From positions 25,047-89,046 of the forward strand of contig JAFGPW010000006.1 of the NCBI GenBank assembly GCA_016935985.1: DNA of 64,000 nucleotides. Direction: 5' to 3'. Positions within the stretch are counted from its first letter, which is position 1. Each line of letters begins with the position of its first letter. Under the pieces are notes generated by a model. It made no database searches. It had not been told where the DNA came from and saw only the letters and a program-made list of their open reading frames with translations. Positions 33,105 through 61,970 of the stretch are shown piece by piece. This DNA is from Candidatus Woesearchaeota archaeon. Its GTDB lineage: Archaea > Nanobdellota > Nanobdellia > Woesearchaeales > JAFGPW01. The position numbers and the translations under genes are program-made.

Positions 33105-33232
33105 GAGGGGGTAGCGAAGCCTGGTCAAACGCGCAGGACTTAAGCGGCGAGGAATCCCCGGTTCCTGGGGTCTCCTCGGCGGAGACATCCTGTCCCCTAG
33201 CGGGTCCGAGGGTTCGAATCCCTCCCCCCTCA
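33105..33232 (+). tRNA. tRNA-Leu (anticodon TAA 33141-33143), intron ~33145-33186
   Basis: gaggggg/ccccctc acceptor, cagga/tcctg anticodon stem, long variable arm, gaggg-ttcgaat-ccctc T-arm, hairpin-forming intron after position 37. Confidence 0.9.
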
Positions 33233-33320
33233 TGCCTGTCGGGCCGAGCGAAGCGAGCGCCGGACATCGGTGTCGACGGACGAAACCATCGTTCCGGATC
33301 CCTCTCCTTATCATGGTCGC

Positions 33321-35859: not shown

Positions 35860-35968
35860 GCCCCCATAGCTCAGCGGTAGAGCGTTACCTTGGTATGTTC
35901 CTTTCAGGAACATCTGGAACGGATCGACAGAAAGGTAAAGGTCCGGGGTTCAAATCCCCGTGGGGGCT
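35860..35968 (+). tRNA. tRNA-Thr (anticodon GGT 35892-35894), intron ~35896-35932
   Basis: gccccca/tgggggc acceptor, gctcagcggtagagc D-arm, ttacc/ggtaa stem, cgggg-ttcaaat-ccccg T-arm, U73; intron contains tgttcc-tttca-ggaaca hairpin. Confidence 0.9.
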
Positions 35969-36238
35969 TAAGTACAAAATGTACCCCAAAAGGGCTAACT
36001 TGAATCGTTCATAAAACATAATAACCCTGGGGATGGTGTATTCCTCATGGGTATATGGCATGACATTGGGTTGGCATGGAATTCCCATTGGAGGACGTTG
36101 CTGCCCATCCTCCTGATTCTTCTTGCGCTCATATGGTTAGTAGTTGCGAGGGATACCGGTTTGGGGGCAAGATTAGATCAGTTTTTAGGATGGAAAGCCC
36201 CTTAGGGGTACATATTTGGTTTAATCCCCGTGGGGGCT
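35953..36238 (+). mobile_element. Small (~254 bp) putative non-autonomous element/MITE or integrative-element remnant at tRNA-Thr 3' end
   Basis: 16-bp exact direct repeat aatccccgtgggggct at 35953-35968 and 36223-36238; imperfect inverted repeat 35976-35996 / 36196-36216 (18 of 21 matching). Confidence 0.6.
36047..36205 (+). CDS. 52-aa single-pass membrane micro-ORF inside the tRNA-Thr element (MGIWHDIGLAWNSHWRTLLPILLILLALIWLVVARDTGLGARLDQFLGWKAP)
   Basis: Hand translation from ATG 36047 to TAG 36203-36205; below the length cutoff of the supplied ORF track. Confidence 0.5.
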   Translation: MGIWHDIGLAWNSHWRTLLPILLILLALIWLVVARDTGLGARLDQFLGWKAP

Positions 36239-36249
36239 CTCAGGTTTTC

Positions 36250-37593
36250 CTAGCGGGCGTATAACGCCGCCTCCGCGGCAGCGACCAGCGGATAGGTCGT
36301 CGGCGCTGGAGTGAGCTTAGGATGCGTCGCAAGCATCATCGTGACGAGCTCCTCCGCTGTCGTGCGCTTCTGTATCGCAAGGCTCAGGATGTTGACCATC
36401 TCGCCGACGCTGTCACCGCCTGCCAGCTGGCCGCCGAGGAGACGGTGCGAGCCCTTCGAGAACACCAGACGCGCACTGATGTTCTTCATGCCAGGGAGCC
36501 CGCCTGGATGCTTGTCAGGCGACTCGGCCTCGCCGATGACGACCTCGAAACCCGCTTCCTCCGCCCCCTTCGCCGTGAGCCCGGCGCATGCGAGAGAGGT
36601 CTCTCCGATCTTGGTCGAATAGCAGGCGACGGTTCCCGGATTCTGCCTGAGGAGCCCGATCGAGACGAGGTTATGGCCTGCGATGCGCGCCTCCGCTGTC
36701 GCGACAGAGGCGAGCCATGCGCCTGAGGGCCTGCCGGTTAACGCATCGCGTTTTGCCGCGCAGTCGCCGACAGCGAAGATGTCCGGATCGTCGAGAGACC
36801 GCTGGTACTCATCGACCCGGATTCCGCCGTACCGGTCCTTGGAAAGTCCTGCGTCGAGCGCGAGCTTCGCGTTCGGGCGTGTGCCGATGCCGAGGATCAC
36901 GACCTGCGCGGGGATGCTCGTCCCGTCAGAGAGCACGACCGTCGAGACGCGCTCGTCGCCCTCGAAGCGTTCCGCCTGGACACCGGTCCTGACCGTGACT
37001 CCTCGGGACTCGAGGGCGGCCTTCGCCTTATCGGAGAAGGGATCGTCGAACTGCCGAGCGAGCACCCGCGGCAGGGCCTCGACGATCGTGATGCGGGCAT
37101 CCTCGAGACAGGAGAGCTCGTCCGCGAATTCGATTCCTATGAACCCTCCGCCTATGACGACAACATCCTTCGCCCGGATGAGGTCCTCTTTCAGCCCGGT
37201 GAGGTAGGAAAGCTGTTTCCTGATGGGATAGATGCCCTTCTTATCCCTTCCGGGAAGCGGTGGGACGATGGGATCCGAGCCGGTGGCGATGACGAGCTTC
37301 GCGTAGGAATGGGTCGTGCCATCCGCTATCGTGACCGTGCGCTTCTCGCGGTCAATCGCGATCGCTTCCGCTTCGAGGAGTCCGATGCCGTTCTTCTGCA
37401 GCGGCTCATTGCCGAGCGCGTTCTTGGCCGGGTCGTCAAGACAGGTGAACATATAAGGGATGCCGCAAGGTATCACCCCGTCCGGGATGTTTTTTATCAC
37501 GAGTATCTTCGCCTCGGGCCGCCTCCTGCGTGCGGCGAGTCCGGTGATGAGCCCCGCAGGGCCGCCGCCGATGATGATGACATCTTGATCCAT
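36250..37593 (-). CDS. FAD-dependent pyridine nucleotide-disulfide oxidoreductase (NADH oxidase / CoA-disulfide reductase-like)
   Basis: MDQDVIIIGGGPAGLITGLAA, VIPCGIPYMF Cys motif, VVIGGGFIGIEFA, DIFAVGDCA. ORF track start 37656; MDQDV start at 37593 preferred. Confidence 0.85.
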   Translation of the reverse strand: MDQDVIIIGGGPAGLITGLAARRRRPEAKILVIKNIPDGVIPCGIPYMFTCLDDPAKNALGNEPLQKNGIGLLEAEAIAIDREKRTVTIADGTTHSYAKLVIATGSDPIVPPLPGRDKKGIYPIRKQLSYLTGLKEDLIRAKDVVVIGGGFIGIEFADELSCLEDARITIVEALPRVLARQFDDPFSDKAKAALESRGVTVRTGVQAERFEGDERVSTVVLSDGTSIPAQVVILGIGTRPNAKLALDAGLSKDRYGGIRVDEYQRSLDDPDIFAVGDCAAKRDALTGRPSGAWLASVATAEARIAGHNLVSIGLLRQNPGTVACYSTKIGETSLACAGLTAKGAEEAGFEVVIGEAESPDKHPGGLPGMKNISARLVFSKGSHRLLGGQLAGGDSVGEMVNILSLAIQKRTTAEELVTMMLATHPKLTPAPTTYPLVAAAEAALYAR

Positions 37594-37855
37594 GGTGCTT
37601 ACCTCTTGTCTGTTCATATCAACATAAGGGGACCATCCGAAAACATATAAAAACATTAGTGAGGACTTAACTGTGATGAAACAGCGGGTGGGTTGCTCGC
37701 ATCAGGGGGTATCTTCTGAAGGGAGCGCCTCCAGACGCAGGCAGGCTCCTCGCATCCCCGCAGAGGCCAGCATTCCCTTCTCACGGGACTATGCAGCCGT
37801 GAGTGCATTTTCAGAGGAAAACGAGTAGATTGGCGCTGTCCATTAATGATCCTCC

Positions 37856-55523: not shown

Positions 55524-55633
55524 GGGCCTGTAGTCTAGTGGCTATGACGTCGCCTCGACATGCACCGAAGTGCGACCAGCACCGCAGGTGCTCGGTACGG
55601 CGGAGGTCCCCGGTTCGAATCCGGGCAGGCCCA
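55524..55633 (+). tRNA. tRNA-Val (anticodon GAC 55557-55559), intron 55561-55597; C at position 33
   Basis: gggcctg/caggccc acceptor, cccgg-ttcgaat-ccggg T-arm, tcgcc/ggcgg stem; BHB: tcga/tcgg 4-bp helix, 3-nt bulges cat and tac, intron helix gcacc/ggtgc. Confidence 0.9.
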
Positions 55634-55821
55634 GTATCCTTTTCGAAAGTATAGAACCCAAAGGAAATCGGCGGGGCAGGGATGGTCTCTGGTCCCGCGG
55701 TCTGCGGCGGCTTCGGTCAAGGCGAATGCCCGCCCGCAGTGTCGATGGAGGGAACCGTCGTTCGGATCAGGGAAGGTCCGGCGGTATTATTTTAAAAAAA
55801 AGAGGTCGAGAGGTCCCAGGC

Positions 55822-61596: not shown

Positions 61597-61871
61597 ACTG
61601 CTGCTTGAGATGGATGAATATTAAAAGGTTTGGATGGGGAAAGGATGGCGCGGGGGCCGGGATTCGTTCCCGGCGATGGTTCTGTCCATCGATGTTCGGC
61701 AATCGGAGAGTGCAGGCATCCCAGCAACGGGTTGCGCCATTCGTGACACCGAGGGTCGGCGTGCGCTGCCGCTTAGCCGACCTCTTGTTCGGAAAGTTCA
61801 GTCCGTGAGGCTGGAGCGGAGCGGAACGCCCCGCTTGAGCCGCCTCGGATTCTAACCTTGCCGAAGGTTAG

Positions 61872-61970
61872 CGCCGGAGCTGGGATTCGAACCCAGAGAC
61901 CCCGAAGGGAACTGGCTTTCGTGGGATCAGCACTCAAGGCCAGCGCACTACCAGGTTATGCGACTCCGGC
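61872..61970 (-). tRNA. tRNA-Ser (anticodon TGA, + strand 61934-61936), short intron ~61918-61932
   Basis: gccggag/ctccggc acceptor, ctggc/gccag stem, long variable arm, ctggg-ttcgaat-cccag T-arm, G73. Confidence 0.85.

Follow-up and report, generated by a model that had tools for sequence, protein, structure and literature searches.

How does the 3' end of a tRNA gene come to be present a second time just behind the gene, and what is the DNA that separates the two copies? A tRNA-Thr(GGT) gene in the 64,000-nucleotide stretch of DNA analysed here (the window), which is part of a 1.4-Mb, 10-contig genome (G000) that is 92% complete, raises this question. The initial annotation had reported that the last 16 nt of the gene recur 270 bp downstream and that an inverted repeat lies inside both copies, and had taken the arrangement for the trace of an integration, with a MITE or a casposon-like element as candidates.

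Results and discussion

The tRNA-Thr locus and its insert

The tRNA-Thr gene, in which the anticodon GGT (35892-35894) and a 37-nt canonical intron (approximately 35896-35932) were both read by eye, is recognized by Rfam (Table 1). ARAGORN at default settings reports no tRNA in the window because the tRNA genes there carry insertions. All four of them (33105-33232, 35860-35968, 55524-55633 and 61872-61970) are 99-128 nt in length and contain insertions.

The 16-nt direct repeat was found again as an exact match that starts in the T-loop and ends at the last (discriminator) base of the tRNA. The chance expectation for an exact 16-mer match within 400 nt is about 1e-7, and the window contains no third copy even when three mismatches are allowed; among viral contigs the 16-mer is present in five, which is about chance level. 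Repeat copy 2 is preceded by the T-arm-like sequence GGTTTAATCC, and some 12 bp separate the end of this copy from the stop codon of the convergent oxidoreductase gene. A tandem tRNA gene was rejected as the origin of copy 2, as the match covers 16 nt only and no tRNA is present there.

The insert is AT-rich as compared to the window (59.6% GC; see Table 1). The core arms of its inverted repeat are identical at 16/18 positions, a value that none of 1000 dinucleotide shuffles of the insert equalled, and begin 10 and 9 nt inside the direct repeats, that is, they are subterminal. To this extent the earlier reading holds: the direct repeat is an integration-type footprint, and it encloses a foreign-looking segment with end-proximal inverted repeats. 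The 52-aa open reading frame in the middle of the insert was rejected as a cargo gene, since frames of this length occur in 15% of shuffles and are thus within chance, and since it belongs to no family and searches of viral contigs, GTDB genomes and 100 genomes of the order gave no relative.

Table 1. Features of the tRNA-Thr locus and copies of the hairpin-ended family in the window
Feature	Position	Strand	Basis
Short family copy (3' hairpin part) behind tRNA 33105-33232	33233..33299	+	R1 45.8 bits
tRNA-Thr(GGT) gene with canonical anticodon-loop intron	35860..35968	+	Rfam RF00005, 60.6 bits
Direct repeat copy 1, AATCCCCGTGGGGGCT, last 16 nt of tRNA-Thr	35953..35968	+	exact repeat
254-nt insert, single copy	35969..36222	+	44.5% GC
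Left subterminal inverted-repeat arm, ATGTACCCCAAAAGGGCT	35979..35996	+	shuffle test
52-aa open reading frame, one hydrophobic stretch, mid-insert	36047..36205	+	shuffle comparison
Right subterminal inverted-repeat arm	36196..36213	-	shuffle test
Direct repeat copy 2, displaced tRNA-Thr 3' end	36223..36238	+	exact repeat, spacing 270
Pyridine nucleotide-disulphide oxidoreductase gene, convergent, right flank	36250..37656	-	Pfam PF07992, 1.3e-60
Family copy behind tRNA 55524-55633	55634..55780	+	R1 134 bits; in R1 seed
Diverged family copy behind tRNA 61872-61970 (-)	61649..61871	-	R1 27.5, R2 25 bits

Further copies of the insert, for which the initial annotation had proposed a search, did not turn up: there is none elsewhere in its genome, no convincing match among 359 genomes of the order, relatives which share only the order with this genome, and no match in phage and plasmid records. 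Four matches of 19-31 nt in the 359 genomes (E 0.003-0.007) were taken as chance. The inverted repeat is likewise absent from the viral contigs, and a viral or plasmid origin was rejected for want of a match in the phage or plasmid records. A MITE would be expected in multiple copies with the same ends; the Thr insert is a single copy in genome and order. On its own, the locus is one clean, young-looking scar and a modest result.

Cas1 and tyrosine recombinases as candidate enzymes

Casposons of family 2 enter tRNA genes at their 3' ends, with duplications of 14-15 bp and inverted repeats (PMC6614799), and the repeat at tRNA-Thr is 16 bp long and accompanied by inverted repeats. The Thr insert could then be a miniature element derived from a casposon and moved by a casposase, a Cas1 integrase. 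However, the Cas1-like gene to be expected (PF01867) was found neither in this genome (E<=0.1; 92% complete) nor, at E<=0.001, in the 20 genomes of the order formed by this one and 19 others, while control genomes gave the expected matches. Cas1 is thereby excluded as the enzyme as far as these assemblies go. Unlike casposons, which need terminal inverted repeats in addition to Cas1, the Thr insert has arms set back from its ends, and the boundary of its duplication differs too: in the A. boonei casposon, the only mapped one that targets a tRNA, 8 bp separate the T-loop motif TCAAATC from the duplicated segment downstream of it (PMC6614799), whereas the Thr duplication starts inside this motif and stops at the tRNA end. 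A casposon identity was rejected on these three grounds, and we regard such an origin as extremely improbable.

A tyrosine-recombinase element, either minimal or a remnant, is a serious rival. Its attP would have carried the tRNA-Thr 3' end, its interior and integrase would have been lost, and its inverted repeats would be recombinase-binding arms flanking the core; the junction of the circular form would read ...TTGGTTTAATCCCCGTGGGGGCTTAAGTAC.... Inverted-repeat arms flanking the core of a circular form can serve as recombinase-binding sites. The earlier argument that tyrosine-recombinase elements are marked by a lack of terminal inverted repeats does not discriminate here, as the arms would flank the 16-bp core in a circle. 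Tyrosine recombinases commonly use tRNA 3' ends and their att sites can be short (reviewed in PMC8371274). Like an attL/attR pair, the Thr repeat matches the tRNA end, and it spans exactly the stretch from the T-loop to that end, as expected if an element must restore the tRNA. Moreover, the AT-richness of the insert fits a foreign element, and the genome has four PF00589 matches, one of them XerA-like by eye. On the other hand, no integrase lies in or next to the insert, nor is there a PF00589 integrase on the whole 163-kb contig (C7), for which deletion might account; besides, both inverted-repeat arms have been kept, although an internal deletion at random need not have spared them.

Recurrence of the scar within the genome

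The initial annotation did not mention that this scar recurs: in this genome, no fewer than seven further tRNA genes are closely followed by a second copy of their 3' end. The survey covered the tRNAs listed by Rfam plus model matches. When the 3' ends of 36 tRNA genes were compared with the DNA downstream, strong duplications other than that of tRNA-Thr were seen at tRNA-Ser (23 nt, exact), tRNA-Met and the tRNAs of loci L069, L059 and L071; such duplications comprise 12-23 nt and score above every shuffle. Two more (L117 and L122) came from a later model search, and apparent repeats at L073, L078 and L092 were discarded as they are explained by tandem tRNAs. As at tRNA-Thr, the inner edge of the duplication is mostly the T-loop.

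Most of these repeats enclose related, structured elements of 60-150 nt. A hairpin of the CTATCCTTTTCAAAAGGATAG type and, behind it, RACCCAAAG form the 5' end of the elements; at the 3' end CGGTGTC precedes a hairpin whose loop is ACGAAA. In 16 sequences, 97% of the cells of the 5' hairpin are paired and 20 cells are changed on both sides, as compared to 6 in shuffles (0/500 as high); because this hairpin is a palindrome, its covariation is silent on whether RNA or DNA is the working form. A covariance model (R1) that includes the 3' hairpin identifies nine places in this genome, four of them seed copies, and matches in ten other genomes, although not every one of the weaker matches is certain. 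R2, which models the 5' end, adds further copies, some of which are clearly chance; its weak matches at L129, L131, L135, L136, L138 and L139 look like chance matches in coding DNA and were rejected. The elements match no Rfam family, that of the group I intron included, and were accordingly dismissed as members of a known RNA family. In an exact search of GTDB genomes the 5' hairpin occurred only in contigs titled Woesearchaeota or Nanoarchaeota. No description of the family was found in open-licence papers, and it seems to be undescribed.

Three copies lie in the window (Table 1). That behind tRNA 55524-55633 has a decayed end repeat at 55760-55780 (16/21). The diverged copy on the minus strand, whose 5' end belongs to the R2 seed, also retains a decayed tRNA-end repeat (16/21), and in the short copy behind tRNA 33105-33232 the R1 match extends over the tRNA and a clear repeat is no longer present. 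Further loci of the family in this genome are L064, L069, L077, L117, L122 and L123, each behind a different tRNA gene.

This decay bears on the idea that the second 3' end is functional, that is, a selected processing or decoy signal in the trailer of an RNA co-transcribed with the tRNA. The Thr insert (z -2.5) and some family members do fold better than shuffles, the former somewhat so. Yet the duplicated ends decay freely in other copies, from 20/21 to 15/21 or none, and by eye the T-stem cannot form in copies E2 and E3, which makes a functional trailer very improbable.

But does the repeat belong to the element or to its target? Near-identical element ends stand at different tRNAs of this genome and each repeat matches the end of its own tRNA; therefore the repeat comes from the target. 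The repeats of the family are target-site duplications and not carried att sites. Target duplication explains the pattern directly, whereas under site-specific recombination the end of the respective target tRNA would have to be part of every element. Carried att sites thus fail to account for the other scars, since within one and the same family the repeat differs from tRNA to tRNA and matches the target in each case. For the Thr insert itself a shrunken tyrosine-recombinase element is still a serious rival; we hold it to be possible but doubtful, and place it next after the reading as a small element of another kind that is developed below.

At two loci, L059:1555-1646 and L071:1606-1683, inserts of about 45 nt, each with a hairpin, lie between duplicated tRNA 3' ends that are closely spaced (60 bp and 58 bp, respectively). 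They possibly represent a third type of element.

Elements and duplications in related genomes

In relatives, elements of the family are found at tRNA 5' ends (L098, L102, L103, L137, L142) as well as 3' ends (L104, L126, L127), in both orientations, with flanking repeats of 11-30 nt, sometimes in tandem, and at one or more non-tRNA sites. At L098, L125, L126, L127 and L019 the repeats reach past the tRNA into flanking DNA, which counts for target duplication because selection for a restored tRNA would not account for such an extension. Flanking repeats scoring >=13 accompany 11/15 element-end matches in relatives as opposed to 6/100 control positions, a comparison that is descriptive since the 15 matches were chosen after inspection. 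Among 40 tRNA genes of relatives, at loci chosen by tRNA similarity alone, five have duplications for which no neighbouring tRNA offers an explanation (L015, L016, L019, L021, L027).

At L124:393-612 an element of 71 nt is present as two identical tandem copies, which alternate with three identical repeats of 26 nt; Rfam finds no tRNA at this site. The layout resembles a tiny repeat-spacer array. The element at L100 lies in sequence that by eye resembles a C/D-box RNA (GATGATGA). At L019:135-400 two inserts whose hairpin ends are reversed lie behind a tRNA-Gln; the tail of this tRNA is present three times, and one repeat extends some 45 nt past the tRNA. Finally, by eye the 3' hairpin of the family is seen in reverse orientation inside tRNA genes at L096, L109, L112 and L119 (around position 1501). 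These intragenic hairpins are in the D-loop, the anticodon loop or the T-loop, have no flanking repeats and are intron-like; the tRNA-Ser of L112 has apparently received three insertions.

A local copying error, in which replication slippage or a template switch at the hairpins of the tRNA gave rise to a second tail together with filler DNA, would be in keeping with the very short inserts at L059 and L071. However, the filler elsewhere is a recurrent family that has covarying hairpins at many sites and also occurs in tandem with identical repeats, and the matched inverted repeats at both ends of the Thr insert argue against such an origin as well. We thus consider a copying error improbable.

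Relation of the Thr insert to the family

The Thr insert shares with the family the duplication from the T-loop to the tRNA end. As a member of the hairpin family it was nevertheless rejected by both models: R2 (5' hairpin plus RACCCAAAG) gave 2.6 bits (E 0.57 in 286 nt), only CCCAAAAGGG resembling the 5'-end model, and R1 (3' ACGAAA hairpin) gave 0.1 bits. Its GC content also differs, with 44% as compared to 61-63% for the family copies of the same genome.

The explanation that we favour, and to which we give about an even chance, is that the Thr insert is a small element of a different kind, non-autonomous, which came to lie at the 3' end of tRNA-Thr through a target-duplicating reaction. 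One strand would have been opened in the T-loop and the other at the mature tRNA end, gap filling would have copied the 16 bp between the two openings, and the product would be an intact tRNA with the element behind it and then the tRNA tail once more; this strand chemistry we infer. In the empty-site allele expected from insertion, tRNA-Thr would be followed directly by TCTCAGGTTTTCCTAG, with neither the insert nor repeat 2. Elements of the other, hairpin-ended family would have arrived behind their tRNA genes in this genome by the same process. That the Thr insert was moved by the machinery of the hairpin family is suggested by the footprint alone, because the insert fails the family models and differs in GC.

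Several observations weigh against this explanation. The Thr insert is a single copy, and the repeats vary in length (11-30 nt, more in L019), unlike those of a classical DDE transposase. The variable length argues against such a transposase and would agree with a reaction that is end-primed or depends on repair. It also counts against the explanation that searches of 20 genomes for Cas1 and reverse transcriptase found no autonomous partner of the elements. Reverse transcriptase is absent from this genome and present in only 6/20 genomes, namely in 5/13 that bear elements and 1/7 others (the seven including one with a weak model match); it was rejected as the partner, since its presence does not track the elements.

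Comparison with known systems

Among described cases the closest is the tRNA-Thr(GGU) locus of Caldiarchaeum subterraneum, which combines a tRNA fragment with an inserted segment of recurrent type and the gain of an intron (PMC3293823). There, too, an archaeal tRNA-Thr(GGU) stands beside a duplicated tRNA fragment and the inserted DNA recurs in the genome. The fragment in Caldiarchaeum, however, is a 5' one and the insert, 1.8 kb in length, contains a putative recombinase gene, whereas at the locus described here the fragment is from the 3' end and the 254 nt show no recognisable gene.

tRNA fragments left by integrated elements are common in archaea (PMC9897764). Archaeal tyrosine-recombinase elements resemble the present ones in having a partial tRNA copy at one end and an intact tRNA at the other (PMC8371274, PMC9897764), but the published ones are kilobases long and carry the att identity themselves (PMC8371274), whereas the repeats of the hairpin family follow the target. 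The Dada transposons of eukaryotes likewise insert into tRNA and small-RNA genes, form tandem insertions with target duplications and in some cases have subterminal inverted repeats; they differ in their 6-7-bp duplications, in their known transposase and in the domain of life (PMC3706591). As far as the account of them in PMC3293823 goes, the transposed tRNA introns of Thermoproteales (Fujishima et al. 2010) are related short sequences spread across tRNA genes, and the 3' hairpin of the family is similarly found inside tRNA genes of relatives (L096, L109, L112, L119); unlike these introns as cited there, the hairpin elements mostly lie outside intact tRNAs and are flanked by target duplications. 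The group I introns reported so far from Woesearchaeota are those of rRNA genes (PMC6125680).

On another contig of the genome (L088:1300-8900, G000:C9) there is an AT-rich island of about 7 kb (36% GC in a 60% genome) whose genes by eye are thioredoxin-reductase-, NifU-, ZIP-transporter- and ParA-like. It ends with the C-terminal fragment of an integrase beside a gene resembling a tRNA methyltransferase and is likely an integrated island.

Conclusions

The tRNA-Thr locus is thus no casposon but exemplifies a broader process of insertion directed at tRNA genes. Tentatively, we suggest that Woesearchaeota and Nanoarchaeota may host an undescribed class of gene-free mobile elements of about 70-250 nt, hairpin-ended and directed at tRNA and perhaps other small-RNA genes, which might duplicate 11-30 bp of target across the end of the mature RNA. 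Under this same tentative reading, the intron-like intragenic copies might link transposition to the gain of tRNA introns, and the Thr insert might be a second lineage that uses the same Cas1-independent machinery.

tRNA genes are classic landing sites of mobile DNA, and the known archaeal cases are kilobase-sized recombinase elements or casposons. If our suggestion is true, tiny hairpin elements that duplicate the end of any tRNA gene into which they insert, in genomes that lack Cas1, would point to an integration machinery still to be identified, and this machinery would sit in some of the least-studied archaea. The related hairpins within tRNA genes of relatives would then offer a testable route to archaeal tRNA introns and tRNA fragments.
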